Assembly: GCA_000403495.2 (NCBI GenBank)
Contig: KE159799.1
Coordinates: 660,782 to 724,781 of the forward strand
Length of the DNA: 64,000 bases
DNA from: Lachnospiraceae bacterium 10-1
GTDB lineage: Bacteria > Bacillota > Clostridia > Lachnospirales > Lachnospiraceae
Direction: 5' to 3'
Part shown: piece by piece, positions 3,790 to 63,546 of the stretch
Layout: each line of letters begins with the position of its first letter
How positions within the stretch are numbered: position 1 is the first letter of the stretch
Notes under the pieces: generated by a model
Told to the model about the DNA's origin: nothing
Database searches by the model: none
The model's input: only the letters and a program-made list of their open reading frames with translations
Position numbers and translations under genes: made by a program

Positions 3790-4677
3790 TTATTCTGTTC
3801 TCTCATTCCCCCAAAAGAACAATGCTACCGTTCCCGGACCGGTATGGCTTCCAATCGTAGTGCCCACATAGTAAATTTCCACTTTACCATTTAACCTGGG
3901 AAAACGTGCTTCAATTAAATCTGCCACTGCTCTCGCGTCCTCATAACAGTGGGAATGACTAATATAGCATTTTCCTGAATAATCCAGGCCATCCTGCGCA
4001 TATTCTTCCATTTTATTTGCAATTGCCTGAATCACTTTTTTCTTTGTCCTGATCTTAAATCTTGGTATCAGTCTTCCTAAATTATCTATATTAAGAAGCG
4101 GGCACAGTTCCAGAACTGATCCAACAAATCCGGCAGTTTTTGAAATACGCCCGCCTTTCACGTAAAAGCTTAAGTCAGTGGAAAAAAACCAATGATGGAG
4201 TTTTAATTTATTTTCCTGCACCCATTCGTATACTTCCTCTATGCCCATTCCCTGATCTCTTAAATCCGCCAGCTTATCCATAAGAAGGCCATAGCCTGAT
4301 GAAGCGCCAAGTGAATCTACAATATAAATCTTTCTGTCAGGAAACTTATCCTCTAATTCCGTTTTTGCAATATTAGCTGAATTCAGTACCCCGGATATCC
4401 CTGAAGATAAAGTCAGATGAAGAATATCCTTCCCTTCTTTCAAAAAGGGAGTAAAATACTCTACGAATTCTTCCGCATTAATCTGTGAAGTCCTTGTTTC
4501 AGCCCCATTTGCCATAGCATCATAAAAATCGGGAAAGGCAATAGATCTTCCAAGATTATCCTCATATTCCTTTCCATCCAGCTCAAAGTGAAAACAGATA
4601 TAATGAATATCCCTTTTATCAAAATGCTCCTGTGTCAGATCCGCTGTGGAACAGCAGCTTAAAATATAATTACTCAT
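3790..4677 (-). CDS. DegV family fatty-acid-binding protein
   Basis: A cytoplasmic DegV-family protein (295 aa from this start). Members bind a fatty acid and some (FakB) present it to the kinase FakA for phosphorylation. Recognisable regions are CCSTADLT at the N-terminus (the family usually has D-S/T-x-x-L), the TSQIN motif near residue 77, LTLSSGISG near 103, and VDSLGASSGYG near 135. I chose ATG at 4677 because AAGGATGGAG sits 4 nt upstream; the longer frame would need a TTG at 4716 with no clear ribosome site. It lies 49 nt after carB and could be part of that transcript. The ligand is inferred only from the family. Confidence 0.88.
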   Translation of the reverse strand: MSNYILSCCSTADLTQEHFDKRDIHYICFHFELDGKEYEDNLGRSIAFPDFYDAMANGAETRTSQINAEEFVEYFTPFLKEGKDILHLTLSSGISGVLNSANIAKTELEDKFPDRKIYIVDSLGASSGYGLLMDKLADLRDQGMGIEEVYEWVQENKLKLHHWFFSTDLSFYVKGGRISKTAGFVGSVLELCPLLNIDNLGRLIPRFKIRTKKKVIQAIANKMEEYAQDGLDYSGKCYISHSHCYEDARAVADLIEARFPRLNGKVEIYYVGTTIGSHTGPGTVALFFWGNERTE

Positions 4678-4726
4678 TTCTCCATCCTTTCTTATATTGA
4701 ATCTTTCTTTTACCAATTCTTTATGT

Positions 4727-7700
4727 TTATCCTTTATTTGTCACAGGATTATTGACCTGTGCCACATCAATTAATGTAAATTGGTCATTTGCATTTTCCA
4801 GGCTGGTTACCAGTGCTTTTGCAGTGTCCATTGCGGTAATGCAGTTTACACCAGTTTCAATAGCAGTCCTTCTGATCAGGAATCCGTCCCTTGATTTGTC
4901 TCTTCCCTGGGTAGGGGTATCAATGACCAGATCAATCCTGTGCCCTAAAATCAAATCCATAACTGTAGGTGACTCCTGGGAAATCTTATTTACTTTACGT
5001 GCTTTGACTCCTGCTTCATTTAACACCGCTGCTGTACTTCTGGTAGCATAAATTGTATAACCCAGCTTTTCAAATCTGCGTCCAATCTCAACAGCTTCCC
5101 CTTTATCCGCATCTTTCACCGTAATAATCACCTGCTTATGCCTGGGCAGATCAATACCTGCCCCTAAAAATGCCTTGTATAGCGCCTCATTAAAGGTCTT
5201 TGCAATCCCCAGACATTCTCCGGTGGATTTCATTTCAGGCCCAAGGCTGATTTCAGCTCCTCTGATCTTTTCAAATGAAAATACCGGCATTTTAATGGCA
5301 AAATAGTCAGCTTCAGGTTGAAGCCCAGGCTTATAGCCAAGCTCTTTGATACTCTTTCCAATAATTACCTCAGCAGCCAAATCCACAATAGGAATTCCTG
5401 TTACCTTGCTGATATAAGGTACTGTACGGGAAGAACGAGGATTCACTTCAATCACATATACCTCTTCGTCGATGGCAATAAACTGAATGTTAATCAATCC
5501 CTTTACATGCAAAGCTTTGGCAAGCCTTCCTGTATAATCCGTAATTTTTTCCTTTACCGCATCTGAAATGGTAGGCGCCGGATAAACGGAAATACTGTCT
5601 CCGGAATGAACGCCGGTTCTCTCAATATGCTCCATGATGCCCGGTATTAAAATATCCGTCCCGTCACAAACTGCATCCACTTCAATTTCTTTTCCCTGCA
5701 GATATTTATCTACAAGAATAGGATGGTCCTGTGCAATCCGATTGATAATATCCATAAATTCTTCTATTTCTTCATCAGAAATAGCTATCTGCATTCCCTG
5801 ACCGCCAAGCACATAAGAAGGCCTCACCAAAACCGGATAACCTAAACGGTTTGCCACCTCCTTAGCCTGTTCTGCGGTATAAACAGTGCCTCCTGCTGCT
5901 CTTGGAATCTGGGTTTCTTCCAGAATTTTATCAAACAACTCCCTATCTTCTGCCGCATCCACGTCCTCAGCCTTTGTACCAAGAATAGGCACACCCATCT
6001 TCATCAGGCTTTCTGTCAGCTTAATAGCAGTCTGCCCTCCGAACTGTACCACCGCTCCGTCCGGTTTTTCCAAATCAACAATGCTTTCCACATCTTCCGG
6101 AGTCAAAGGCTCAAAATACAATTTATCCGCAATATCAAAGTCCGTACTTACTGTTTCCGGATTGTTATTAATAATAATGGTTTCATAACCTGCTTTTGAA
6201 AAAGCCCATGTAGCATGAACGGAACAGTAATCAAATTCGATTCCCTGACCGATTCGGATAGGGCCGGAGCCAAGCACCAGCACCTTTTTGGGAGGATTGG
6301 TTTCCACCGCTTCATTTTCGCAGCCATACACAGAATAGTAATAAGGAGTGCTGGCTTCAAATTCTGCAGCACATGTATCCACCATTTTGTAGGCTGCCAC
6401 TATTCCATTCTCATAGCGCAGTTTCTTAATCTCTTCTTCTGCCATATCTGTTAGTCTGGCAATCACATTATCAGGAAATTCAATCCTCTTTGCTTCTTTT
6501 AATAATGGAATGGTAAGCGGTCCTTTCCTAAGCGCCTGCTCCATCTCCACCAAAATGGCGATTTTATCGATAAACCAATGATCAATCATAGTGATTTCAT
6601 GAATGGTTCCATAGTCAATTCCCTTACGTATCGCTTCCGCAATCACATAAATCCGCTGATCATCCACCACCTTTAGTCTTTCCATTAAATCCTCTGCTGA
6701 AAGATCTGAAAAGTCACAACTGAGTAAACAGTCCACATGCTGCTCTAAAGAACGAATCGCCTTCATAAGGGCGCCTTCAAAATTGCCGCAGATGCTCATT
6801 ACCTCTCCAGTCGCCTTCATCTGGGTGGTAAGGGTTCTTTTGGCAGTGATAAACTTATCGAAAGGAAGCCTTGGAAGCTTTACCACACAGTAATCCAATG
6901 TGGGTTCAAAGCTGGCATATGTCTTGCCTGTAATGGCGTTTTTGATTTCATCTAAGGTATAGCCCAGCGCAATCTTAGCCGCCACCTTTGCAATTGGATA
7001 GCCGGTAGCCTTACTTGCCAGCGCAGAAGACCGGCTCACCCTGGGATTTACCTCAATCACACAGTACTCAAAGCTGGTGGGGTGAAGGGCAAACTGCACA
7101 TTACACCCGCCGGTGATCTGAAGCTCATTGATAATATTAAGGGCTGCCGATCTCAGCATCTGATACTCTTTATCCCCCAAAGTCTGGGAAGGGGCAACCA
7201 CAATACTGTCACCGGTATGCACGCCTACCGGATCAATATTTTCCATATTACAAACAGTAATGCAGTTGCCTGCACTATCCCGCATTACTTCATACTCAAT
7301 TTCCTTCCAGCCTGCAATACAGCGTTCCACCAAAACCTGCCCCACTCTGGAAAGCCGGAGGCCATTTTCCAAAATACTTTCAAGCTCCTCCTGATTGTGG
7401 GCAATTCCACCACCGGAGCCTCCTAATGTATAAGCCGGGCGAAGCACCACCGGATAGCCGATGGTATTCGTAAATGCAACACCATTCTCCACAGTTTCTA
7501 CCACTGTAGACGCTGCGCAGGGCTCCCCTATCTTTTCCATAGTATCCTTAAATTCCTGCCTGTCCTCCGCCTTTTTAATAGTTGCAGCAGTGGTTCCCAA
7601 AAGCTTTACATGATGAGAAGCTAAGAAACCGGATTCCTCAAGCTCCATGCCAAGATTTAAGCCTGCCTGTCCGCCCAGCGTAGGCAGAATGCTGTCAGGC

Positions 7701-7945
7701 TTTTCTTTCTCAATAATCTGTTCTAAAACCTTTGCTGTTAAAGGCTCAATATACACTTTATCCGCAATGTTTTTATCTGTCATAATGGTGGCAGGATTTG
7801 AATTTACCAAAATCACCTCCACGCCCTCTTCCTTCAAAGAGCGGCATGCCTGTGTCCCTGCGTAGTCAAATTCCGCAGCCTGTCCGATTACGATAGGGCC
7901 GGAGCCAATCACCATGACTCTCTTTACATTTGGATTCTTAGGCAT
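4727..7945 (-). CDS. carB: Carbamoyl phosphate synthase large subunit
   Basis: Makes carbamoyl phosphate from bicarbonate, ammonia and two ATP, feeding pyrimidine and arginine synthesis. The 1072-aa length matches the family. It has the duplicated architecture: two halves each beginning with a glycine-rich motif (VMVIGSGPIVIGQAAEFDYAG and VLVLGSGPIRIGQGIEFDYC), each with an ATP-grasp core ending in EVNPR (VIEVNPRVSRSSA, VIEVNPRSSRT). A C-terminal MGS-like allosteric domain spans about residues 935-1072. Its start overlaps the carA stop by 8 nt, the usual carAB coupling. Confidence 0.97.
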   Translation of the reverse strand: MPKNPNVKRVMVIGSGPIVIGQAAEFDYAGTQACRSLKEEGVEVILVNSNPATIMTDKNIADKVYIEPLTAKVLEQIIEKEKPDSILPTLGGQAGLNLGMELEESGFLASHHVKLLGTTAATIKKAEDRQEFKDTMEKIGEPCAASTVVETVENGVAFTNTIGYPVVLRPAYTLGGSGGGIAHNQEELESILENGLRLSRVGQVLVERCIAGWKEIEYEVMRDSAGNCITVCNMENIDPVGVHTGDSIVVAPSQTLGDKEYQMLRSAALNIINELQITGGCNVQFALHPTSFEYCVIEVNPRVSRSSALASKATGYPIAKVAAKIALGYTLDEIKNAITGKTYASFEPTLDYCVVKLPRLPFDKFITAKRTLTTQMKATGEVMSICGNFEGALMKAIRSLEQHVDCLLSCDFSDLSAEDLMERLKVVDDQRIYVIAEAIRKGIDYGTIHEITMIDHWFIDKIAILVEMEQALRKGPLTIPLLKEAKRIEFPDNVIARLTDMAEEEIKKLRYENGIVAAYKMVDTCAAEFEASTPYYYSVYGCENEAVETNPPKKVLVLGSGPIRIGQGIEFDYCSVHATWAFSKAGYETIIINNNPETVSTDFDIADKLYFEPLTPEDVESIVDLEKPDGAVVQFGGQTAIKLTESLMKMGVPILGTKAEDVDAAEDRELFDKILEETQIPRAAGGTVYTAEQAKEVANRLGYPVLVRPSYVLGGQGMQIAISDEEIEEFMDIINRIAQDHPILVDKYLQGKEIEVDAVCDGTDILIPGIMEHIERTGVHSGDSISVYPAPTISDAVKEKITDYTGRLAKALHVKGLINIQFIAIDEEVYVIEVNPRSSRTVPYISKVTGIPIVDLAAEVIIGKSIKELGYKPGLQPEADYFAIKMPVFSFEKIRGAEISLGPEMKSTGECLGIAKTFNEALYKAFLGAGIDLPRHKQVIITVKDADKGEAVEIGRRFEKLGYTIYATRSTAAVLNEAGVKARKVNKISQESPTVMDLILGHRIDLVIDTPTQGRDKSRDGFLIRRTAIETGVNCITAMDTAKALVTSLENANDQFTLIDVAQVNNPVTNKG

Positions 7946-43411: not shown

Positions 43412-44794
43412 TTAAATCGTTTCCGTAAATATTTTATCAAAAATTTTTTTCAGCATATCCTTTGATTCATTTTCACTTTCCCGATAAGCAAAGGGAACCT
43501 TCAGTATTTCAAGAGGAATGCATTTTGAAGCCTCCAGCCCGTCCAAATGGATGTCATACCTTACTTCCAATGTCTCTATATCTTCATTTTTATGGAGCGG
43601 ATAGATAAGATATAGTTTCTTTGCACCACGCTTTACTGCATATATGGCCATCTGCTTCATGTCATTATCGCTGATTTTTAATTTACGATTTTCCCTCACC
43701 TTTTGAAATCGTTCTATTTCTTTATATTTTGTGTCAAGCACAACAATAAAATCATCAAACTCCACCAGAATATCTTCTTTTAGTGAAAAAACATTTCCCA
43801 AAACCTCGCCATCTACAACAAGCTCTGCAAGATACTGCCCCCTTGCCTGGGTTCTTACCTTTGCTCTCCCCGCCAGCATTTCTTTTATAAATCCGCCAAT
43901 AAATCCTTCAAACAATATTTCCGCCGGAAAGAGGAAACAAAAGGTTTCCGTCATGCCGATTTTATTTGAACTTATTTTATTTAAAAGAAACATCTTGCTC
44001 ATGCTGAGAATAATCCTGTAATTTCCATGAAGGGCGCTTAAATGAACCTGATCGCAATCATATGGCTTACAATTTTCGTTTGCCACATCCCCTAAAACCA
44101 CCAGAATATTTCTGATTATTTTCTTGTTCGCAGCCTGATTTGTAATATTTAAGAGAAAAAGGCAGGTACACTTGATAATTCTGTTTAATGCATTGTCAAA
44201 TACAAAACTGGAATAGGTATAATTCAGCTTATCTGCCTGTCCCCGGGGATACTTACGCAATGAATAATCCTTAAAATCAATGCGCCCTTTCACAAATGAT
44301 CCTGTTTCCACAACATCTTCATACTGATGATACCGCAGTCTGCTGATTGCTGCCTTCACATAATGCACATAAATCGTTATAAACAGCTCCATTAAATTTT
44401 CCGCCTCAGACAGTTCTCCCTTCATAAAAACAAAAGGAAAATTTAATTTGTCACAATAGCCAAGCCAGTATATCAAATTGTTAATAAGGTCTTCTGTTTT
44501 TAAATTATCTGTATCAAAATCATCCTCATCTTCTTTAAAAATCTTTGGAAATATGTTTAATTGTTCCCCTCTGAATGTTATGGTTCCAATGTAATTCTGC
44601 AACTTTACCGCATCTTTTTTATCGAAATCTATAAACTGCTGCCTGCTGGTAATGTGTCCATCGGTGTAAAAAATTGACCTCTGCTGCCAGTTTTCCTGCA
44701 AAAAGCTTTCCAGTTCCTCCATCGCCCCTTCTTCCTGCCAGGACTCGGGCAGCTTATTTAATTTTATTTTTGAAAATTCAAATCCATTTATCAT
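43412..44794 (-). CDS. McrC-like nuclease subunit of an McrBC-type restriction system
   Basis: The 460-aa nuclease partner of McrB. The N-terminal half is the McrC/5-methylcytosine restriction domain (YIGTITFRGEQLNIFPKIFK). The PD-(D/E)XK site is in the last third: LKEDILVEFDDFIVVLDTKY followed by K, then MKQMAIYAVKRGAKKLYLIYP. Cleaves modified DNA when driven by the McrB GTPase. Its ATG overlaps the mcrB stop by one base. Confidence 0.88.
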   Translation of the reverse strand: MINGFEFSKIKLNKLPESWQEEGAMEELESFLQENWQQRSIFYTDGHITSRQQFIDFDKKDAVKLQNYIGTITFRGEQLNIFPKIFKEDEDDFDTDNLKTEDLINNLIYWLGYCDKLNFPFVFMKGELSEAENLMELFITIYVHYVKAAISRLRYHQYEDVVETGSFVKGRIDFKDYSLRKYPRGQADKLNYTYSSFVFDNALNRIIKCTCLFLLNITNQAANKKIIRNILVVLGDVANENCKPYDCDQVHLSALHGNYRIILSMSKMFLLNKISSNKIGMTETFCFLFPAEILFEGFIGGFIKEMLAGRAKVRTQARGQYLAELVVDGEVLGNVFSLKEDILVEFDDFIVVLDTKYKEIERFQKVRENRKLKISDNDMKQMAIYAVKRGAKKLYLIYPLHKNEDIETLEVRYDIHLDGLEASKCIPLEILKVPFAYRESENESKDMLKKIFDKIFTETI

Positions 44795-45852
44795 TAATTA
44801 TCCTTTATCTTAATACAGACTCTTCCCAGCACCCTATTGTCAATTTCAAATCTCGTACCGTCAATGCATTCCAATGCTTTTTTGACTTTTGCCTCGTCAT
44901 CATAAAAATACTCATATAATAACGGAATAATATTTCTATTCATTATTTTCCCAAGCTGGGATATGTTTTTTCCAATAAAATAAGAATGGCCAATCAATAA
45001 GTCCGTGCTCCGCAACTCTTTCCTTAAATATTTATTTAAGTTTACCAACACGTTCCTTAACTCACTATCTTTAACCATTTCCGGATTCGGTGCCATTTCC
45101 ACAAAATCAAATCTCCGCCTGAGCGCTGCATCAATAAGCGAAATTGATTTGTCCGCAGAATTCATTGTGCCAATAATGTACAAATTGTTTGGAACTGCAA
45201 GCTTATCCCCAAAGGGCAGGGTTGCAGACATTTGGTTAAGCTCACCCCACCTTTTATCCTCTTCCACCAATGTTATGAGTTCTCCAAAAATCTTTGATAT
45301 ATTTCCACGGTTAATTTCATCTATAATAATTACGTAATTATTACTCTCATCCAGCATTGCCTTATCAGCTATTTTCTTAAAAATGCCATCTGCTATCTTA
45401 AAACTGACCTTCTCTCCAGCAGGCTCCGGCCTTATACCCTGTACAAATTCTTCATATCCATAGCTCTGGTGGAATGTGGTAAATACCACCTGTTCTTTTT
45501 TTATGTATTGCTCATATTGCTTTATTTTTTCTCTTCTTTCTTCGTCGCTAATCTGATTCTTTTCTATTTCTCTGTTTTCAATGATTGCAAGCGCATACTC
45601 TACTGTTGAATGTGTTTTCCCTGTTCCCGGCGCCCCATAAATAATCTGATTGAGAGGATGGATTTTCTGAACACGGGGGCTTCTTTCTATAAGCATGTTA
45701 TCTTCCGCCTCCCCTTCGTTTATGGAAACATCATCCAATGAATCTTCCCCCGCATTCACTACCACTTCATTATGGATATTTCTCTGCTCCATAATTTTCC
45801 TGAGCCTTTCATCAATTTCTTTATTTATTTTATTGCCTGCCTCATTTGCCAT
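44794..45852 (-). CDS. McrB-like AAA+ GTPase
   Basis: The motor of the McrBC-type system, 352 aa. Walker A is IIYGAPGTGKTHSTVEYA (near 74), Walker B is YVIIIDEINRGNISKIFGEL, and the McrB-specific guanine-recognition motif appears as IIGTMNSADKSISLIDAALR. The N-terminal modified-base-binding domain of E. coli McrB is missing; the first 60 residues are low-complexity acidic. Target recognition may reside in the upstream HTH protein, whose stop overlaps this start. Confidence 0.9.
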   Translation of the reverse strand: MANEAGNKINKEIDERLRKIMEQRNIHNEVVVNAGEDSLDDVSINEGEAEDNMLIERSPRVQKIHPLNQIIYGAPGTGKTHSTVEYALAIIENREIEKNQISDEERREKIKQYEQYIKKEQVVFTTFHQSYGYEEFVQGIRPEPAGEKVSFKIADGIFKKIADKAMLDESNNYVIIIDEINRGNISKIFGELITLVEEDKRWGELNQMSATLPFGDKLAVPNNLYIIGTMNSADKSISLIDAALRRRFDFVEMAPNPEMVKDSELRNVLVNLNKYLRKELRSTDLLIGHSYFIGKNISQLGKIMNRNIIPLLYEYFYDDEAKVKKALECIDGTRFEIDNRVLGRVCIKIKDN

Positions 45853-48804: not shown

Positions 48805-49120
48805 TTATCTTTTGAGAATATTCTGCCAATCAGCTTTATTATACAAAACCCTGATTATGTATACTACGTCATTTTGCATATCATAATAATAAAAAATGTT
48901 GTAATTATCAAAGTATGCTATGCGTATCCCCATGCGCCCCAGTAATTCATCTCCTACTAAGGGATGTCCTTCTGGATATTCTTTCAGCTTACCCGCCGCA
49001 TCTAAAATGCCATCGGATATCCTCTGCGCCGCCTGCGGATTACAAAGATCTACAAAGATATAGTATTCTATGTCCAGCAGGTCCATACTCTGCAGGCTCA
49101 GTAAATACTACCCTAGCCAC
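48805..49120 (-). pseudogene. ParE/RelE family toxin with frameshifted N-terminus
   Basis: The GTG at 49120 begins VARVVFTEPAEY, the correct first strand of a ParE/RelE toxin, but an extra G after TAT (about 49085) shifts the frame. The remaining protein is in the other frame (48805-49086): DLLDIEYYIFVDLCNPQAAQ, then RMGIRIAYFDNYNIFYYYDM and VYIIRVLYNKADWQNIL, all family-typical. Restart at ATG 49086 would make a 93-aa protein lacking the first strand, so the toxin is probably inactive. It overlaps the antitoxin gene by 8 nt. Confidence 0.75.
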
Positions 49121-49471: not shown

Positions 49472-49551
49472 GGGCAAAAACTGGTCGATTTTCGCTCCAA
49501 TTTTTGCCCAAGGCAAACAAGTTTGCCTTTAACCACCAACATCTTGTGGTT
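49472..49551. other. Three consecutive stem-loops in a gene-poor stretch
   Basis: The 442-bp stretch 49278-49719 has no convincing gene. It contains three hairpins in 80 bp: GGGCAAAAA/TTTTTGCCC (49472-49509), AAGGCAAA/TTTGCCTT (49510-49529) and AACCAC/GTGGTT (49531-49551). On the minus strand a short frame from the ATG near 49660 (MQYKIKVQGNIEVITKLQYH) recalls the N-terminus of serine recombinases and may be a remnant. Confidence 0.4.
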
Positions 49552-49719
49552 TTGACCGCCTATTTCTTCTCTTTTCCCATCCCAACTTGTTGAGGATGAT
49601 ACTGCAACTTTGTTATTACCTCTATATTCCCCTGAACTTTGATTTTATACTGCATAGCGAAAGTATGCAATAGGTGTTCAAAGTGGGGTAATGGTTTTAT
49701 CCCCATAAAAAGTGGTTGA

Positions 49720-50067
49720 CTAAATGTATTTTAAGATTTTTCTATATAAATCCCACAGCCTCGGTCCACAAAAACCACCCAAAGCACTCAACCCACGATG
49801 CTCATGAACATCTCTATCTTCAACCTCAAAGAGCCTATGGAAATCATCTCCCTCACCTACATAAACTGATTTGTCATAATTAAGAAAAGTAGACTTGCCA
49901 CTAAATTGGTCACCTGTGATATCTATAATAATATGTTTGTCTACCATCAGCCACGCATGAGATTGTCCGTTTCCATCCGGTTTACCCCAATATGTTCCAC
50001 AGACATAATCTGTTTTGATACCTTTATCCAATAAATACTGAGCTAACAAATCACTCGTATCTCCGCA
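49720..50067 (-). pseudogene. 3' part of a transglutaminase-like gene cut by an inversion
   Basis: Encodes CGDTSDLLAQYLLDKGIKTD, then GNGQSHAWLMVDKHIIIDIT and GDQFSGKSTFLNYDKSVYVG: a Cys-His-Asp order fitting a transglutaminase/cysteine-protease-like fold. The open frame extends 98 codons further upstream, but that part is not protein-like. The proper 5' part is on the opposite strand at 50276-50391. Both parts share TGCGG, in frame, at the breakpoints (50063-50067 and 50387-50391). Flipping the 319 bp between would restore one gene. Confidence 0.72.
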
Positions 50068-50275
50068 TGTTGAAACAGTCTGCCTTCTGTCGAGAAAAGC
50101 CCAATAAATCAAAGGATTTCGCCATTTTGGGAATAAAATAGATGTGTTTCTGTTTCCGTAGAGTGATGATATAACCGGATGTTTACCCCAGGGGATAGGC
50201 TTTGGAGAACGGGAAGTATACATTTTGGCGAAAGGATACATTTGGGCAAAAGTGGTTTTGTTAAAGGAGCGTATG

Positions 50276-50391
50276 ATGAAGGAAATTAAACAGTTCGCAA
50301 CCCAATTTCGAAGAGCGATTGATTTGGCTTTGGAAGCAGGGGAGTTTGATAATGACAGCATATATCGCAGATTTCCACGTGCTTGCTGCGG
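50276..50391 (+). pseudogene. 5' part of the transglutaminase-like gene, on the inverted segment
   Basis: AAAGGAG is followed by ATGATGAAGGAA, giving MKEIKQFATQFRRAIDLALE and AGEFDNDSIYRRFPRACCG, after which the frame runs into ESYFLY and a stop. RFPRxCCGDxxxLL is how intact relatives continue (from memory), matching the CGDTSDLL start of the minus-strand part. Confidence 0.7.
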
Positions 50392-50489
50392 TGAAAGTTA
50401 CTTCTTATACTAAATAGCGAAACCGTAGTCTTTTGCGAAAAAGTTCATGCCCCACTTAGGGGGATAGCGTTTACCCCAGCTAAAACCAC

Positions 50490-51608
50490 TTACTTCTTTG
50501 TATTATCAATTCTTATATCATTCAATGGTAATGATTTGAATAATTTCAGTACTTTTTTCGCTAAAGTCTCCAACTCCTCAATTTGCCTAAGTAACATATC
50601 AGCTTCATCTTTAGCTTCCTCCGCCAATTCAGCAAATACGTTACTTGCTGCACTCATAGCTTTATCTACATAATAATCTAATTTTTCATCATAAGCCTCA
50701 GCATAGCATTCACTAAGATATTCATCCACGAAATCTTGTTCATCAAACTTAGCCAAATCATAGACACTTCCCATAAAAAGCATCTCCATATTTTCAATCG
50801 TATGGCTTGCTTCTTCTATCACAGTATCCAAATTATCGATTCCCTTTTCATAGAACACACGCAAGTCAAATATTTTATTAACTCTTTTTAATAATTCCAG
50901 GTATTGATAACATATCTCCTTTGCCTTCTCTAAGTCTCTTGTATGTAAAACACTGCTTGTAGTATTATAATACCATTTTTCTATTCCCCTATGATCTGAG
51001 AGTAAATAAAACATCTGATAATACTCTTCATGCATTGCTCCAAACATTGCAATACTCTTTCGTATTGCCGTTTCTAAAAACAAAAGTTCTTCATCTGTCT
51101 TATATTCGCTAGAACTATCAATAATCCACGGAAACACTTCCTCTTGTAGAAATTCAATAAAATCAACATCTCTGCTTATAAAGCCCGACTCAAAATTGTC
51201 TGCACTTTCTTCAGAAAAGTTTGACGATCCTACATACGCAATATTATCAGTCATAATAATTTTTGCATGATTTGAAAAACAAAAATAAACCTCTGCTTTA
51301 TCCGCAATCTTTTGTGGAGACAACTTACTTTTATATAATGAAATGCTTCTTTTGGCCTTATCTGCATAGGTTTTTCCAAAATAGGATTCCCAACGTCCCG
51401 GAATATTTGATACAATACATATCTCTGTATCTTTTTCACAATCCTTCAACGCTTTTAATAAGACATTTTGGTCTTTTGAAATATTATACGTCAAAATATG
51501 TATCTGACTTGCATTTTTAAAGTCCTCGATAACAGCAGAATATGTCAGTTCATCTTTCGACATAATAAACTCTGCATCTTCAAGCCTCTTTGAAATTATC
51601 ATTAACAA
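50490..51608 (-). CDS. Single-HKD phospholipase D-like nuclease candidate
   Basis: A 372-aa protein with an N-terminal PLD-like domain: strand IHILTYNIS, then the HKD motif SNHAKIIMTDNIAYVGSSNF (His, Lys, Asn/Asp and GSSN present). There is only one HKD, so it would work as a dimer, like Nuc or BfiI nucleases. The C-terminal 170 residues are helical and acidic, ending in a coil (EEAKDEADMLLRQIEELETL). It is the last gene of a three-gene unit (25 nt after the 214-aa gene). A DNA- or RNA-cutting effector role is inferred; lipid hydrolysis is unlikely as no signal or membrane segment is present. Confidence 0.8.
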   Translation of the reverse strand: MLMIISKRLEDAEFIMSKDELTYSAVIEDFKNASQIHILTYNISKDQNVLLKALKDCEKDTEICIVSNIPGRWESYFGKTYADKAKRSISLYKSKLSPQKIADKAEVYFCFSNHAKIIMTDNIAYVGSSNFSEESADNFESGFISRDVDFIEFLQEEVFPWIIDSSSEYKTDEELLFLETAIRKSIAMFGAMHEEYYQMFYLLSDHRGIEKWYYNTTSSVLHTRDLEKAKEICYQYLELLKRVNKIFDLRVFYEKGIDNLDTVIEEASHTIENMEMLFMGSVYDLAKFDEQDFVDEYLSECYAEAYDEKLDYYVDKAMSAASNVFAELAEEAKDEADMLLRQIEELETLAKKVLKLFKSLPLNDIRIDNTKK

Positions 51609-51633
51609 TATACCTCGTATGCTACAATTTTAA

Positions 51634-52278
51634 TTATTTTCTTTTAGCAAAACTCTCAATTATTTCTCTATCTGTTCTTTCTTCTGTTGGATCATCAGAA
51701 AAGAAAAAACTCAAGTTTGTATCACTAAAATATCTTTTGTACAAATCTGGTCTTAATATTTCTGCCTTATTGCTATTTTCAACACTTCTTCCATTAGGCG
51801 TCCCATCTTCTTTTTTACCATTTCTTCTAACATCAAAACAATATATCGCATTAGGATTATTGCCCTCTGTTCTTCTTCCAATAAGTAGCCTCTCTTCTGA
51901 AGACTTCACAATCACCTTTTCTGATGGTATATAACGTGAAAATATAGCAGAAAAATCTTCAAACAAATCTCTATTGGCGTTACCTTTTTCAACACCGAAA
52001 AATTCACAGAATTCATACGCACTATCAAAATGTACATTATAAAAATCAATATATCCCTTAATTGATACATTTACATTTTCCTGCTTTATAAATTCAACCG
52101 TTGCCTTTGCATACTTTGAAGGTCTTTTTTCGTTTTCTCTATACAATTTTAAGATAACAATATAATTCTTATTTTTATATGGAAAGAAAAAAGAATCAAT
52201 AACCCATTTTTTTATTTCCATATCTTTTAACAATAATGGTAAATTTTTGAATCTTATCTCTTTTTTCAAGTCAGCCAT
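51634..52278 (-). CDS. Uncharacterised protein, DUF6037-like
   Basis: A 214-aa soluble protein: DMEIKKWVIDSFFFPYKNKN, YIVILKLYREN, a middle part ending PSEKVIVKSSEERLLIGRR, and NAIYCFDVRRNGKKEDGTPN with AEILRPDLYKRYFSDTNLSF. The pattern matches what I remember of DUF6037 but I cannot verify it. No catalytic motif is apparent. It is the middle gene of the three-gene unit, 75 nt after the nuclease-like gene. Confidence 0.7.
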   Translation of the reverse strand: MADLKKEIRFKNLPLLLKDMEIKKWVIDSFFFPYKNKNYIVILKLYRENEKRPSKYAKATVEFIKQENVNVSIKGYIDFYNVHFDSAYEFCEFFGVEKGNANRDLFEDFSAIFSRYIPSEKVIVKSSEERLLIGRRTEGNNPNAIYCFDVRRNGKKEDGTPNGRSVENSNKAEILRPDLYKRYFSDTNLSFFFSDDPTEERTDREIIESFAKRK

Positions 52279-52353
52279 CTAATCCTCCCTAATATCTATG
52301 TACAAGACAGAAGTTTTTAATATATGCTAAAAATATGTCAACCGAAATACATT

Positions 52354-53592
52354 TTACCTTTTTCTTGCTGATGCTGCCGCCTCTTTCCGTTCTTTATCGT
52401 TCAGTTGAAAAATCATATGAAATACTTTCATCCTATTACCGGTTTCAGGAACAATATGTTCGCTAGTAATCATTAAAGTATCCCTCTCCCCGATTCTTTG
52501 AATTCTGATTGGCTGAAAATCCCCTTTGATACTCTTCAACTTATTCTCTATTTCATCAAATCCTTTTTTTAGGGACATTTCTCTATTCATAGATAACGTA
52601 ATACCAAATTCGAAATTAGGGTTTAAATATCCCATCAACTGGTTATATTGATTTGTAAAGTTTTCGATATATTTATTCTCAAGCACTGCATAATCTGTAA
52701 CATGTCCGTCCTTCTCTGCGTATATATACAAATCTGTCTCACCCAATTTTTTAATGGCTCGCCCCATTGTAAATTCACGTGAAATGTGCAAATCATACTT
52801 ACTATTCAGACTTCCTGCAATAGCATCTTGGATATCTGCAGTAATTTCCACTTCATCTCGATTTTCAAAATGGACAATACGTTTCTGGAAACGTTTAATC
52901 ACAGATATCAATTCCATTACAATATTCTCGGACAATGAATTACACAAACCTCTATTTTTTTCGCTCTGCGTCTCCAAATATCTATCCCGCAAATCACATT
53001 CCATTAAATCAATGTAATCATCAAGATTATCATGTTGAAAGAACATTTCTAGCAACTTCGGATTTCTAAGATATAACATAACCATACTACTCAATTGTTC
53101 TGGTAAAAAATCATGATCTTGAAAACAAATATAATAGTATTCTTCAAAATACTGTATCAATTTTAAACTATTCTTTCCATCATCATTATTTAAATCTCTT
53201 TTAAGCTCATCGTCTATGGGATTTATTATTAAATCATCTTCATCATCTGTACAATCTTCCCACCAGCATAATATTGCATATAGCAAATATTCATATTTAG
53301 ACTTAATAAAATCCCTGATATTTTTTGAACAGATAATTTCATATAATTCATTGACGGCATTTCTACACTCTTGCGGTTTTCTCATAAGATAATCTCTTGG
53401 AAAAAATCCATCTAAATCAAACTCCGGATCTGTTTCAAGAATATCTATTAATACCCGTACTATATCCCGCAAATTACTATTAACGTACTTTGTTATCCGC
53501 ATCCCAAGACTTGATAAATTATCATAATCCACTATATCAATTTGAATCAAAATACTCATCCCTTCTTGACAAGAAAATCTTATTCCGTTCAT
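52354..53592 (-). CDS. PD-(D/E)XK nuclease-like protein of unknown family
   Basis: A 412-aa soluble protein, first gene of the three-gene unit. The N-terminal 230 residues are helical and acidic without known motif. The C-terminal part has EITADIQDAIAGSL, then LGETDLYIYAEK, AVLENKYIENFTNQYNQLMG and YLNPNFEFGITLSMNREMSL: an E...D...ExK...Q arrangement fitting the PD-(D/E)XK fold, as in restriction and anti-phage nucleases. The start is uncertain: ATG 53592 lacks a clear ribosome site and an internal ATG (residue 12) has AAGGG too close. Confidence 0.72.
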   Translation of the reverse strand: MNGIRFSCQEGMSILIQIDIVDYDNLSSLGMRITKYVNSNLRDIVRVLIDILETDPEFDLDGFFPRDYLMRKPQECRNAVNELYEIICSKNIRDFIKSKYEYLLYAILCWWEDCTDDEDDLIINPIDDELKRDLNNDDGKNSLKLIQYFEEYYYICFQDHDFLPEQLSSMVMLYLRNPKLLEMFFQHDNLDDYIDLMECDLRDRYLETQSEKNRGLCNSLSENIVMELISVIKRFQKRIVHFENRDEVEITADIQDAIAGSLNSKYDLHISREFTMGRAIKKLGETDLYIYAEKDGHVTDYAVLENKYIENFTNQYNQLMGYLNPNFEFGITLSMNREMSLKKGFDEIENKLKSIKGDFQPIRIQRIGERDTLMITSEHIVPETGNRMKVFHMIFQLNDKERKEAAASARKR

Positions 53593-53640: not shown

Positions 53641-53679
53641 GAAAAAAAGCCGATCAGGAATCGCAACTCCCAATCGACA
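53641..53679 (-). terminator. Terminator after the serine recombinase gene
   Basis: On the minus strand GTCGAT pairs with ATCGGC (one G-U) around an 18-nt loop and is followed by seven U residues, 8 nt past the recombinase stop. Confidence 0.6.
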
Positions 53680-53686
53680 TCTTTTC

Positions 53687-55105
53687 TTACTCCTCTTCAT
53701 TTTTACATTCAATCTCCGTTCCGTCCAGGAAGACCACCAACAATGTTCCATCTTCAAAAACCTTGATGTGGTCCAGTGTTTTCAGCATGAAGTCCGTATC
53801 CATCTCCGTCAAAGGCTTTGCCCCATCGGTATATTCTATGAACTTCTCCGCCCGATAACTTTCCAAGAGGTTCTCGCTCTGCAGCTGTTCCGTCCACTGC
53901 TCCATAAAGTCCTCTCGGTTCTCCACCAATGCGTTCCAAGCCATCAGATAAGCCTTTATCAGCGTTTCTTCCTCTACGTGGCGGTTGGCACATCCCATAA
54001 CTCCTTTGACCTTGTAGCGTTCACTGCATTGCCATACCTTACGGTCAACTCCCATACTGCTCCGCCAGCCTTTCCGTGCAAATACTTTATTACAGTCTCC
54101 GCAAATTATCTTGGATGCAAATGGATTGCTTTCCGGCCGGTGGGAATAGGAGTTTGTCCCATGCTCCTCCAGATACTTTTTCCTGCGTTTTATTTCAAGC
54201 TGTACACATTCCCATATCCGCTTTGAAATGATGGCATCGTGGTCATCCTCCACATAAAACATCTGAATTTCCCCTTTGTTCTGTGTACGTTTCTTGGTGA
54301 GGAAATCCACCGTATAACTTTTCTGCAGCAAGGCATCACCCTTGTATTTTTCATTCTCCAACATACTCATTAAGGTTGTGGACTGCCACTTCGTACCGCC
54401 ATCCCAATTTTTCACACCTTCCCGTTCAAAAATCCTCTTGATGTAATCGGTTGTTTTTCCGTCCATGAATTCCTGATACAGCCGAACCACAATCGGCTCC
54501 TGTGTCCTATTGATTACCAGCTTCCCCGTTTCATCCGTATCGTAGCCAAGAAAACGCTTTGTACTCATTTTGTGCTTCCCTGTCTCAAACCTTCTGCGGA
54601 TTCCCCATGTGCAGTTCTCTGAAATGGATCGGCTCTCGTCCTGTGCCAGTGAGGAAAGAATGGTAAGCAGCACTTCACCCTTTGCATCGAGAGTATTGAT
54701 ATTTTCCTTTTCAAAAATAATCCCTATCCCCAAATCTTTCAACTCTCGCACATAGTTCAAGCAATCCAGCGTATTTCTTGCAAATCTGGAAATGGACTTG
54801 GTAATAATCATGTCAATTTTCCCCGCCCTGGAATCAGCAATCATACGGTTGAATTCATCCCTCTTTTTGGTATTGGTTCCTGAAATACCTTCGTCTGCAT
54901 AAGTTCCTGCATATTCATAGAGTGGATTCTCACTGATGTAATTTGTGTAATAATTGACTTGATTCTCATAGCTTAATAACTGTTCTTCTTGGTCGGTTGA
55001 CACTCGGCAGTACGCTGCCATCTTCAATTTCTGCACTGACTGTGCTGTTCCTGATTCCGCAGTCGAAATCTGCTTTGCTGGTATAACAGTAATGCTTCTT
55101 GCCAT
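53687..55105 (-). CDS. Serine site-specific recombinase (large serine family)
   Basis: A 472-aa integrase/excisionase. Residues 28-170 form the resolvase catalytic domain: MAAYCRVSTDQEEQLLSYEN with the nucleophile Ser, and TKSISRFARNTLDCLNYVRE with the active-site Arg pair. The 'recombinase' DNA-binding domain (TTDYIKRIFEREGVKNWDGG) and a zinc-ribbon (CGDCNKVFARKGW ... WQC ... CANRHV) follow. AGGAGGT lies 9 nt before this ATG. Its 5' leader has two strong hairpins. It likely moves the island that includes the three-gene unit and/or the BlaR cluster; no att sites were identified. Confidence 0.93.
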   Translation of the reverse strand: MARSITVIPAKQISTAESGTAQSVQKLKMAAYCRVSTDQEEQLLSYENQVNYYTNYISENPLYEYAGTYADEGISGTNTKKRDEFNRMIADSRAGKIDMIITKSISRFARNTLDCLNYVRELKDLGIGIIFEKENINTLDAKGEVLLTILSSLAQDESRSISENCTWGIRRRFETGKHKMSTKRFLGYDTDETGKLVINRTQEPIVVRLYQEFMDGKTTDYIKRIFEREGVKNWDGGTKWQSTTLMSMLENEKYKGDALLQKSYTVDFLTKKRTQNKGEIQMFYVEDDHDAIISKRIWECVQLEIKRRKKYLEEHGTNSYSHRPESNPFASKIICGDCNKVFARKGWRSSMGVDRKVWQCSERYKVKGVMGCANRHVEEETLIKAYLMAWNALVENREDFMEQWTEQLQSENLLESYRAEKFIEYTDGAKPLTEMDTDFMLKTLDHIKVFEDGTLLVVFLDGTEIECKNEEE

Positions 55106-55131
55106 TTTTAACCACCTCCTATAGGAAACTC

Positions 55132-55161
55132 GTGTTACGGGGCTGAAAGCCCCGAAAACAC
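55132..55161 (-). promoter_or_regulatory. GC-rich leader hairpin of the recombinase gene
   Basis: GTGTT-ACGGGGCT / AGCCCCG-AAAACAC folds into a stem of about 12 bp with small internal mismatch, directly upstream of the ribosome site TATAGGAGG. It could limit translation or terminate transcription into the recombinase. Confidence 0.55.
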
Positions 55162-55170
55162 TGCGTTTGT

Positions 55171-55194
55171 AGTTCGAGGACATGTCCTCGAACT
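55171..55194. repeat. Perfect 24-bp palindrome upstream of the recombinase
   Basis: AGTTCGAGGACA followed directly by its complement TGTCCTCGAACT, with no loop. Candidate regulator-binding or recombination site; its position 66 nt before the recombinase start is suggestive but not proof. Confidence 0.7.
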
Positions 55195-55330
55195 AAGTTA
55201 CCTACTGTCGTATACCTGACCTCTAAGCGTCTGTAACTCCAGCTTTAATTGCCGGATTTCTTCCTCCAGCTTTTTGATCTTTTTATCTTTTGATTCAATA
55301 ACTGTATCCCTTGATTTCGCAACGGATGGG

Positions 55331-55453
55331 GTGAAAAAACAAAAACTGTTATTGATGCTACAGGAATGTGATGAGCAAGAGGCAGCCGAGATTCTTCCAG
55401 CAATTGAATATCTCTTAGCACTCATACATAAAAGAGGTAGTTCAAACGATTAA
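55331..55453 (+). CDS. Small helical ORF between recombinase and blaI
   Basis: 40 codons from GTG: KKQKLLLMLQECDEQEAAEI and LPAIEYLLALIHKRGSSND. The protein is strongly helical and resembles short ORFs that accompany serine recombinases in clostridial elements (memory only). A rho-independent terminator starts 2 nt after its stop, supporting transcription. No clear ribosome site precedes the GTG. On the other strand 55198-55320 encodes a coiled-coil tail (ESKDKKIKKLEEEIRQLKLE) without a start, so this interval may be a junction of two gene fragments. Confidence 0.4.
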   Translation: MKKQKLLLMLQECDEQEAAEILPAIEYLLALIHKRGSSND

Positions 55454-59643: not shown

Positions 59644-60909
59644 TCATTCTTTAATCCGGTATTGATAATCAGGTATATGCATAATTCCGTCATTTAGGAT
59701 TTCATTTCCCAAATACTGAAAACTTCCATCCTCTGCAAACCTTACCGTAAGTTCATGGGTTATGACCGCATCATCGCAAATGACCATATCACAAACCGCC
59801 TCAACTGTTAATGTGACTGTTCCATCTTCATTTTCTTTGATATCGACAACCTCTGGCAGAGAAGTTCCAAAGAAAGTAGGTGCGTAATTAAAACATCCAA
59901 GACGCACCCAATAATATGTCTGCTTTTCCTCATCAAATACTGCGTACTCTCGTATCTGCTCCGCTGTTATGGGAAGATACTCCATAATCAGATTTTCGAA
60001 TTCTTCTTTCGGAATGCCATTTGGATAATCTTCGGAATTGAACTTTTCTCCATATTTCATTCCATACAGATATTCAAACATTCCGTTATAATCCAACTCA
60101 CTCATATTTTCTGCATTCCAGTTGGAACACAAAAGGTTCTGTCCCTGATATCCAAGTCCCAGGACGAGGCGCTCAGACACCTCTCGCTGTTCCTCTGTCA
60201 TAGGCTTTACTCTGATCAGACAGCTTCCATCCATGATTTCACTGACTTCCGGTGGCTCCGGTACACATAATTCATAACAAAACCATCCCTTATCTGTATA
60301 TTTCCACTCTTTTAGTCTTGTATGGGAAATGTATGAAATTCCCGGCTTGTTGTCAGCATTCCAGATTCCTCTAGCACTTACAACATACATATCCGTTCCA
60401 TCAAAAATGAATTTCATTCTTCCCAGTCCGCCATCGTTATGGACTTCATAAATTACTACAGAACTACTTTTCCCTTCCATACATTCTTTCAGAAAACTGT
60501 CAACACTTTCATAATTCTCCATATTAGAATAGGTTATCATCGTTGTAACCGGGCATCCTGCGTCTGTTAGTTTCTTCTGCATTTCAAGAACCGTTTGATC
60601 ATCCAAAACAACATTAGATGCCATCCCTTTATCTGCTGATTCATAAATGTCAAAATAAAGTTCCATCAGCTTTTTACAGTCAGTCTCAGCTTCTTCCCTT
60701 TCCTGTACATCTACTGGAAGGTCATAACCCTTTTCCCATTGTTCTGCAGCCTCTTCCTCGGCACTTTTTGTTTCCTCCGTGGAAGATACTTCTTCCGTAT
60801 CTTCCACAAGAGATTCTCCCGCAACACTATCCTCTTTTCCACAAGCACACATGAAACACCCAATCAGAAATACCATGATCAGTAGAATGCTCTTTTTCCT
60901 TAATACCAT
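59644..60909 (-). CDS. Lipoprotein of a three-member paralogous family (DUF6070-like), copy 3
   Basis: 421 aa with a lipoprotein signal (lipobox MCAC, Cys23) and an acidic Ser/Glu-rich linker. The body shares blocks with the two genes upstream: IPKEEFENLIMEYLPITAEQ and EVVDIKENEDGTVTLTVEAV, then VRFAEDGSFQYLGNEIL. I believe the family is DUF6070, common in Lachnospiraceae, but cannot check. Fixed on the outer face of the membrane. It follows copy 2 by 4 nt; AAAGGA lies 7 nt before ATG. Confidence 0.8.
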   Translation of the reverse strand: MVLRKKSILLIMVFLIGCFMCACGKEDSVAGESLVEDTEEVSSTEETKSAEEEAAEQWEKGYDLPVDVQEREEAETDCKKLMELYFDIYESADKGMASNVVLDDQTVLEMQKKLTDAGCPVTTMITYSNMENYESVDSFLKECMEGKSSSVVIYEVHNDGGLGRMKFIFDGTDMYVVSARGIWNADNKPGISYISHTRLKEWKYTDKGWFCYELCVPEPPEVSEIMDGSCLIRVKPMTEEQREVSERLVLGLGYQGQNLLCSNWNAENMSELDYNGMFEYLYGMKYGEKFNSEDYPNGIPKEEFENLIMEYLPITAEQIREYAVFDEEKQTYYWVRLGCFNYAPTFFGTSLPEVVDIKENEDGTVTLTVEAVCDMVICDDAVITHELTVRFAEDGSFQYLGNEILNDGIMHIPDYQYRIKE

Positions 60910-60913
60910 AAAA

Positions 60914-62188
60914 TCATCCTTTCGTTCTTGCTATTGGCGGCAGTTCCAATTCAATTTGTTCTATAGAATTGGAAAGATACCTGAAAGTTCCGTCTTCAAA
61001 TGGCTGGACCACAACCGTATTCCGAAAAGCGAGATCAGAATTATAATCCGGCCATACTCCATCCACGATAAGTGTAATCGTTCCATCCGCATTTTTTGTA
61101 TAGTCAACCACTTCTCCAAAAGGCGGATATGGACTGGCATAAATCATTTCATATTCATAACTGTTGTGGTCTGCGTTGTATCTACAATGTTCTCTCAACT
61201 GCTCCACAGACACCGGGAAATAGGTAGTCATTATTTTTTCATACTCCTCTGCCGGAATTTCCCATCCCTGTGTCTTCAGATTTTCGCCTGTATAAATCCG
61301 ATAGATATCTTCATACATGCAAGGCATCAAAATATCCTCTACATTGCTACTGTTCCAGTTTGTGACAAGCACATTGTAATTCACATAGCTTAGTCCTGAT
61401 ATGTATTTCTCCGTCAGTTCCTGGCAGTCTTCTGGAAGCGGTTCTATTCTCCAATACTGTCTCAAACTTGCATGTGCAATCACATATTCATATGCGTAGA
61501 TAAAATACCCTTTTTCAGTAAGTTTAATTTCAGCCACATTACTTACCGAAGTTCCCTGTATTTCAGGCACTCCACCTTCCTTCCAACGAACACCTATATA
61601 ATAAGTCTGCAACTCACCTTTCCGGTAAATAAAAGTAACTGCTCCAATCAGTCCATCTCTATGCACTTCAAATACCGTAACCATCGAGTCCTGTCCATTC
61701 AAGTAATCTGCGTAAAACGCTTCAATTGCTTCATGATTTTGCATAGCATTATCTTCTTCAACACTTACCAAACCGCTTCTGCCCAATTGTTCCACCACGG
61801 CTTTCCTCTGCTCGTTGGTAAATTCGTTAATACCCGAAGAGTAGCTTGGTGCATCTACAATTACAATATCCTTATAGATTTCTCTGACCGATTCTGCTGC
61901 TGACAAAACCGTACTCTGCAACTGCTCCTTCTCCTCTTCTGAAAGGAGGTCATCGCTGGCTTGCGGAATGAACCAATATGCTGACTCTGTAGAAGTTTCC
62001 GCATTCTCGGCTTCTTCTGTTTCTGCTTCGCTATTTTCGATTTCTACAGGTGGCTCCCATACTTCTTCTGCCACCTTTTGCTTTTCTGTATGCTGTTTTC
62101 CCCAACAGAACACTCCTGCTATCACTAAAAACAACAGCAGCAAAATCGGAAGTCCACATCTTCTAAGCAGCCATTTCACATCTTCCAT
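60914..62188 (-). CDS. Membrane-anchored paralogue of the same family, copy 2
   Basis: 424 aa from ATG 62188 (GGAGG 6 nt upstream), whose A overlaps the TAA of copy 1 (TAATG). Anchor helix GLPILLLLFLVIAGVFCWG in place of a lipobox, an acidic linker, then the shared domain: IPAEEYEKIMTTYFPVSVEQ, EVVDYTKNADGTITLIVDGV and VVVQPFEDGTFRYLSNSIE. The frame extends 19 codons upstream to 62245 but without support. Function unknown. Confidence 0.82.
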   Translation of the reverse strand: MEDVKWLLRRCGLPILLLLFLVIAGVFCWGKQHTEKQKVAEEVWEPPVEIENSEAETEEAENAETSTESAYWFIPQASDDLLSEEEKEQLQSTVLSAAESVREIYKDIVIVDAPSYSSGINEFTNEQRKAVVEQLGRSGLVSVEEDNAMQNHEAIEAFYADYLNGQDSMVTVFEVHRDGLIGAVTFIYRKGELQTYYIGVRWKEGGVPEIQGTSVSNVAEIKLTEKGYFIYAYEYVIAHASLRQYWRIEPLPEDCQELTEKYISGLSYVNYNVLVTNWNSSNVEDILMPCMYEDIYRIYTGENLKTQGWEIPAEEYEKIMTTYFPVSVEQLREHCRYNADHNSYEYEMIYASPYPPFGEVVDYTKNADGTITLIVDGVWPDYNSDLAFRNTVVVQPFEDGTFRYLSNSIEQIELELPPIARTKG

Positions 62189-63423
62189 TATTCGCCTCCG
62201 TACAATTCTTCCCATTCTTCTAACGTCAACCGTGGCGTATGCCAAGTTTCTCTGTAGTTGTCTTCAGATGGTATAATTCGGTTAGATACATATTGTACTC
62301 CTCCGTCCTCTAACGGGCGGACCACAACCTCATGAGCATATACCTTGGAATCACCTGCATAAGGGAATACTACATTAGCTGTAAGTGTAATTGTCCCATC
62401 GCTGTTTTCTGTAAAACCGACTACCTCTGAATATGGATATTCCGGGTATTCTACTTCTTCGAAACCTCTCGGCTTATATTCATAAGTCGAATCCACCGAA
62501 TCATAGACTGTTTTGGATTGTAGCGTTTCGCTATCGATATTGAAATATTTCATAATAACACTTTCAAATTCCTCTTTTGGAATCTGATAAACTGCACTGA
62601 CTGATAAGTTGTCATCAGCAACATAAGGAACATACTGACCGTTTACTTTTGGATAGAGAATGTCATACATATCATAGAAATTCAAATCCCCGAAATCCTC
62701 CTCACTCCAATCCACAATGAACATATTATTCCGTTCAAAGCTGATTGGGTTGAGATATTTCCGACTCAACTCCCTATATGTTTCATCCAATGGCTGTACC
62801 CGTAATGCTGTATGCTCCTCTGCTCCACTCAATGTAAGAACATATAATTCTTCTGAAAACCAAACACCGGAAAACATCAGGTAACCTTCTTCTGTATAAT
62901 TCCAATACTCCGCTTGATAACTTCCAGTAACCTCCCTATGCATATCTCCGTTTTCGTACTTGTAATAGCTTCTGACCACATCTACATTTCCGTCTTTTGT
63001 GTGCAAATCGTATTTTACAAAACCACCCAAATAACTGATTTCAAGAATCGTTATTTCTGCTTCTTCCTGTGCATCCACCTTTTCGCAGAATTCCACTACC
63101 TTCTCTGGTTTCGTCATGTTAATTTGATTTCTGCTGTCAACAGCCGGATATCCATTTTCTCCAAGGCAATTTACAATACTGCGAATCGTTTCCAAATCAG
63201 CTATCTTATTTTGTTCTGCTGCTTCTTTATAAAGATCCACACAGATTTCTATAATTTCTTCCGCATTCTCCTGAGAATTTTCTGTTGCCTCCTGAACCTC
63301 AATGAAGAGATCATCAACCTGTATTTCTTCCGGTGGTGTATCATTGCACCCCGAAATAGTACAACTCAAAAGTATTTGTATCATGCATAGTCTCATTCCT
63401 ATGCCTCTCCTTTTTTCTTTCAT
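62188..63423 (-). CDS. Lipoprotein paralogue of the same family, copy 1
   Basis: 411 aa from ATG 63423 (GGAGG 5 nt upstream; the frame runs on to 63528 but would start inside the promoter region). Signal MRLCMIQILLSCTISGC with lipobox ISGC. The shared domain is IPKEEFESVIMKYFNIDSET, VVGFTENSDGTITLTANVVF and VVVRPLEDGGVQYVSNRI. First gene of the operon, with two BlaI-type operators and a promoter upstream. Confidence 0.82.
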   Translation of the reverse strand: MKEKRRGIGMRLCMIQILLSCTISGCNDTPPEEIQVDDLFIEVQEATENSQENAEEIIEICVDLYKEAAEQNKIADLETIRSIVNCLGENGYPAVDSRNQINMTKPEKVVEFCEKVDAQEEAEITILEISYLGGFVKYDLHTKDGNVDVVRSYYKYENGDMHREVTGSYQAEYWNYTEEGYLMFSGVWFSEELYVLTLSGAEEHTALRVQPLDETYRELSRKYLNPISFERNNMFIVDWSEEDFGDLNFYDMYDILYPKVNGQYVPYVADDNLSVSAVYQIPKEEFESVIMKYFNIDSETLQSKTVYDSVDSTYEYKPRGFEEVEYPEYPYSEVVGFTENSDGTITLTANVVFPYAGDSKVYAHEVVVRPLEDGGVQYVSNRIIPSEDNYRETWHTPRLTLEEWEELYGGE

Positions 63424-63483
63424 ATAGACCTCCACTCTTTTTTCTAATATGGTAATATCCTGATTTTCAATGTACAGCATTTT

Positions 63484-63506
63484 AATTATTACATCTATAA
63501 GATTTT
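63484..63506 (-). promoter_or_regulatory. BlaI-type operator, leader of the lipoprotein operon
   Basis: ATTATTACATCTATAAGATT, about 60 nt upstream of the first lipoprotein start and downstream of its promoter. One half-site deviates (ATAAGA for GTAAGA). Confidence 0.6.
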
Positions 63507-63546
63507 TGAACAAAAAAATCTTTTCCACAATACAATATACTCTCTT

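Follow-up and report, generated by a model that had tools for sequence, protein, structure and literature searches.

Three adjacent genes, designated here A, B and C, raise the question of whether they constitute one defence machine or merely lie next to each other. The window, that is the whole analysed stretch of 64,000 nucleotides from Lachnospiraceae bacterium 10-1, carries them in an order that had been read in the first-pass annotation as one system with two nucleases. The favoured explanation, to which a probability of about 0.68 is given, is that the three are accessory genes without relation to one another, which arrived or are moving independently and now follow a large serine recombinase as cargo, lined up head to tail at a variable site of the chromosome; they would be parts of no conserved machine.

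Open reading frame calling in the window recovered the three genes as initially described, all on the minus strand (Table 1) and separated by 75 and 25 nt, a spacing that fits one operon and counts against stacking. Judged by their sequences, they are genuine genes and not chance reading frames, since B matches PF19503, C matches PLDc_2 and A has three aligned homologues. All three frames are uninterrupted. Comparison with homologues placed the probable true start of A at TTG 53550 (398 aa) and that of C at ATG 51602. The three genes may be co-transcribed. The PADLOC scan gave the trio no system name, in agreement with the initial failure to match it to any named system.

Table 1. Coordinates of the features discussed, in positions of the window.
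Feature	Position	Strand	Remarks
Gene C	50490..51608	-	372 aa as called
HKD region of C (H114-x-K116 ... G127 S128 x N130)	51213..51269	-	alignment
DNA block common to window and L030	51627..52319	-	693 bp, 94.8% identity
Gene B	51634..52278	-	214 aa, DUF6037 family
Gene A	52354..53592	-	412 aa as called
Putative nuclease core of A	52627..52854	-	alignment of 4 sequences
A Q318-x3-Y322	52627-52641	-	putative nuclease core
A E305-x-K307	52672-52680	-	putative nuclease core
A G284-E285-x-D287		-	putative nuclease core
A E247	52852-52854	-	putative nuclease core
Terminator-like hairpin + T run	53649..53678	-	between recombinase and A
Large serine recombinase	53687..55183	-	directly upstream of A; Resolvase E 2e-34, Recombinase E 1e-14
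Right junction	55319..55450	+	C-terminal remnant of XRE-like regulator gene (type by eye)

The protein A had no significant match in Pfam, PADLOC, NCBIfam or PHROGs, nor among the named PD-(D/E)XK family profiles, and its best PDB sequence match had an E-value of 0.021. Its three aligned homologues shared 51, 31 and 27% identity with the window protein, and the alignment of the four sequences showed an N-terminal region, conserved over about 210 residues, followed by a C-terminal PD-(D/E)XK/RecB-like motif with seven invariant positions (E247, K281, G284, E285, D287, E305 and Y322). The E...D...ExK...Q region reported previously at the C-terminal end was found complete, including the xxxY extension, in the window protein and two of the three homologues (L072 and L026), while the third (L025) kept E247, E285, D287, E305 and Y322 and missed K307 and Q318. 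The order E, GExD, ExK, QxxxY is that of the RecB-like PD-(D/E)XK nucleases, from which A differs by its own conserved N-terminal region and by the lack of a match to any named model. Most likely, A represents a PD-(D/E)XK nuclease of the RecB-like (QxxxY) type, in which the N-terminal part would be a recognition domain of its own. Shedu SduA is a defence protein of the same PD-(D/E)XK type, but A showed no profile similarity to it: there was no match to PF14082 (SduA_C), and hhalign against the Priestia koreensis SduA protein gave a probability of 0.2%, so that an assignment of A to Shedu was rejected.

The middle gene, already suspected to be DUF6037-like, is a clear member of this family, matching PF19503 over residues 9–210 of its 214 with an E-value of 6.6e-68 and 229.1 bits, far over the curated cut-off of 28.8. 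The family is already known but carries no assigned function, and its name was absent from the 5.39 million papers searched. B clustered with 11 sequences at 52–93% identity (L030–L040), the remaining sequences being 29–41% identical, and the hosts of the family included Clostridia, Bacilli, a Mycoplasmopsis, Actinobacillus and Shewanella isolates and a Capnocytophaga MAG. The AlphaFold2 model of B (mean pLDDT 92.8) predicted a fold without clear match among solved structures. The residues conserved in its C-terminal half (Y146, C147, R152, N153, R164, N168, K171, R176, S190 and D203) suggest that this half may bind a phosphate-bearing ligand. Two different DUF6037 copies (L058 and L060) had a TGA at one otherwise conserved tryptophan codon, corresponding to W25 in the window. 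In the Mycoplasmopsis locus (L007, positions 6558–6616) the final 59 bp of the DUF6037 gene were 86% DNA-identical to the end of the window gene, the proteins being just 36% identical; AT-rich codon use may explain this likeness.

The gene B occurs as a single-gene DNA block. The block common to the window and an uncultured Clostridia contig (L030), where B comes after type I restriction-modification genes, consists of B, 41 bp of upstream and 7 bp of downstream sequence, and nothing more; its coding part gave dN 0.027 and dS 0.177. A further B unit of 985 bp was 97% identical at the DNA level between Suipraeoptans and S. pneumoniae.

The protein C matched PLDc_2 (E 2e-8, 34.6 bits at a cut-off of 27) over a single PLD stretch and carried the HxK...GSxN motif of the PLD superfamily, which upholds the original description of a protein with one HKD/PLD unit. 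In the alignment of eight members, the window protein included, N113, H114, K116, G127, S128 and N130 were invariant and the position of the D of the HKD motif was occupied by D, N or E; the long C-terminal tail ended with an (I/L)DNT-type sequence in six of the eight. One-HKD PLD enzymes are expected to pair with themselves to form a two-HKD active site. C itself, most likely a nuclease of this one-HKD PLD kind, would need such self-pairing, and its tail and conserved C-terminal end would serve as a control region. The HKD part of the C family gave weak matches to the profiles of DrmC of DISARM, with each DrmC model matched by at most five of the eight members (best E 7.8e-7; window C 4.3e-4). 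Membership in DISARM, where a DrmC-type PLD protein accompanies DrmA/DrmB and a methylase, was rejected: directly around C lie A, B, the recombinase and a transglutaminase-like gene that is rearranged, with no DISARM partners, and none of the nine other window proteins in the PADLOC scan, including both neighbours of C, had a DISARM match.

Conserved co-occurrence of the three genes, the check which the first-pass annotation itself had named, was sought in 392 genomes of the order and 398 genomes of the phylum, with counts that include the own genome and some weak matches; the linkage of A and C was assessed in both genome sets and in plasmids, phages and viral contigs, all of them samples of the known diversity, and a scan of named genomes made for DUF6037 provided 34 loci. 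Within the order, A was present in 3 of 392 genomes and B in 6 (5 above the Pfam cut-off). C likewise occurred in 6, its matches comprising three weak ones (G342, G377 and G378, two of which looked cardiolipin synthase-like by eye) and a fragment (G362). The phylum set contained A in 3 of 398 genomes (one weak match, G423) and C in 5 (three weak). The own genome alone held more than one of the three genes, among the 392 order genomes and, for A and C, also among the 398 phylum genomes. At the level of loci, family-profile searches found no C homologue at any of the 42 B loci outside the window, and neither A nor B at the 13 other C loci; the full set of 43 B loci included several near-duplicates, and some contigs were short. 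An A-like fragment was present at 1 of the 42 outside B loci (L049), on the opposite strand, 4.7 kb off and covering part of the C-terminal domain only; apart from this locus and the window, neither B nor C occurred at the A loci. Close relatives offered no homologue of the exact A-B-C trio for a linkage test, a limit that counts against the stacking reading. A conserved three-gene A-B-C system was rejected for the sampled genomes and loci. Among these the homologues lie apart outside the own genome, with L049 as the sole partial exception, and B occurs as a single-gene block; the initial reading as a single two-nuclease system of three linked genes did not pass the refutation test set in the first-pass annotation, and no evidence speaks for a new multi-gene system.

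Many of the homologues had defence-type neighbours of very different kinds. The B genes were accompanied by a RloA-like ATPase, RloB, DUF6414 and an HNH protein (L014), an AAA_13-like ATPase nearby as judged by eye (L013), an EEP nuclease overlapping by 4 bp (L012), SLFN_AlbA_2 (L007), a kinase-helicase (protein kinase-AAA_11/12, L033), GmrSD_C (L056), a guanylate-cyclase-like protein (L051), OLD-TOPRIM and UvrD proteins (L062, and L031 on the other strand), an Eco57I-type methylase (L041), a C5 methylase (L047) or a reverse transcriptase (L032). Others had neighbours that looked ordinary by eye (L034, L037, L040, L053/L054), and some plasmid B genes stood by themselves. One A homologue (G507) followed three recombinase-type genes, called by eye with the nearest confirmed by Pfam, and preceded OLD-TOPRIM and UvrD genes; another (G080) adjoined a recombinase, again called by eye, and genes without names, and a third (G044) had D12 and N4/N6 methylases upstream at a distance of a few kb. 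The Gabija-like OLD-TOPRIM and UvrD pairs at G507, L062 and L031 adjoin A as well as B, but A, B and C match none of these proteins. Homologues of C adjoined AbiE in Vescimonas, were present also on viral contigs, and in other cases had no evident partner. One C-family PLD gene (G105 contig 45, L020) began 14 nt after an AAA_13 ATPase gene, itself truncated where the contig begins, and was overlapped by an unnamed gene. On the Priestia koreensis plasmid NZ_CP061869.1 (L078, positions 4319–7905) RES-domain, C-family PLD and SduA (Shedu) genes were consecutive, with gaps of 38 and 18–27 nt, making a RES-PLD-Shedu operon possible; here the SduA_C protein is encoded directly downstream of the C homologue.

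The surroundings of the trio in the window were consistent with a variable site. Pfam matches substantiated the serine recombinase beside the trio, whose gene starts about 135 bp from a junction at 55319. From this position rightwards two genomes of the same genus (G791 and G787) matched the window at 97–98%, and both comparisons broke there, each genome being different to the left. Position 55319 falls within a small XRE-like regulator gene, which was whole in G787, and only its C-terminal part was retained in the window and in G791; for the missing part, the own genome offered no good match (best 35% identity, with a query that lacked one residue close to its end). The terminator-like site between the recombinase and A is weak, as one was found against 0.8 expected by shuffling. 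The McrBC locus mentioned initially is real but lies at 43412–45852, 4–5 kb from C; a ParE-type toxin gene was present at 48805–49086, but its description as broken was unsupported, since it matched nearly the whole Pfam model. The transglutaminase-like gene beside the end of C (49720–50400; part matching phrog_26734, E 3.8e-9) was apparently split, by eye, with its halves on opposite strands, and no inverted repeats flanked it. Elsewhere in the window, DUF6070 proteins of 421, 443 and 446 aa were encoded by three genes in tandem (59644–63528), and a stretch of about 150 bp (49472–49622) had copies at 88–92% identity in the same genus, two in G792 and one in G787, possibly representing a small dispersed repeat.

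Shared strand, short gaps and nuclease motifs in both outer proteins would also be expected of a lineage-specific three-component defence system, recently assembled from free-standing parts and co-transcribed, in which A and C would be the nuclease effectors and B would sense or regulate. The Priestia koreensis plasmid, where C stands beside a PD-(D/E)XK-type protein, indicates that such a pairing with PLD may recur. Nevertheless, no two intact members were adjacent in any other genome or locus searched, and B alone was common to unrelated loci at 95–97% DNA identity, which makes such an assembly quite improbable. It is also unlikely that the genes maintain or control a mobile element, by stabilising a plasmid or element, by excluding rivals or through a toxin-antitoxin-like pairing, instead of acting in phage defence. 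Lactobacillus plasmids on which B has AAA ATPase/DUF5388 genes on one side and replication initiator genes on the other, C after relaxase and AbiE genes in Vescimonas, and A and B genes adjoining recombinase-type genes (in the window and L072 by Pfam, in L049 by eye) point in this direction; however, B and C also adjoin restriction-modification and ATPase systems where no genes for element maintenance are obvious, and no conserved small partner of A, B or C was detected among ORFs of at least 70 aa.

Decay is common in the DUF6037 family, as 6 of the 43 B loci were truncated or interrupted (L013, L038, L058, L060, L061 and L063), which would suit a cargo without present function. In the window, however, all three frames are intact, A and C retain their putative active-site motifs, and dN is low relative to dS for B against L030, leaving this explanation only a very slim chance. 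Independent stacking of unrelated cargo remains the preferred reading. Of the defence reading, the gene anatomy, the two nuclease motifs at the sequence level and the many defence-type neighbours stood, while the single three-gene system did not.

If the genes are stacked cargo, each would be its own module, and A, B and C would most likely work independently of one another, either against phages or plasmids or through damage to the infected cell. In A, the N-terminal region would recognise its target, after which nucleic acid would be cut; C would pair with itself into a two-HKD active site, and the conserved C-terminal half of B would act on a phosphate-bearing ligand. It is conceivable, if doubtful, that DUF6037 represents a novel type of anti-phage or anti-plasmid protein that functions on its own, has a fold new among solved structures and spreads between phyla as single-gene units of about 0.7–1 kb beside many different defence systems.

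The adjacency of the three genes made it tempting to speak of a system, a reading that is corrected here. What the locus offers instead are A and C, unnamed families of known enzyme kinds and candidates for stand-alone nucleases, and DUF6037, singled out as a lone gene frequently adjoining defence genes.
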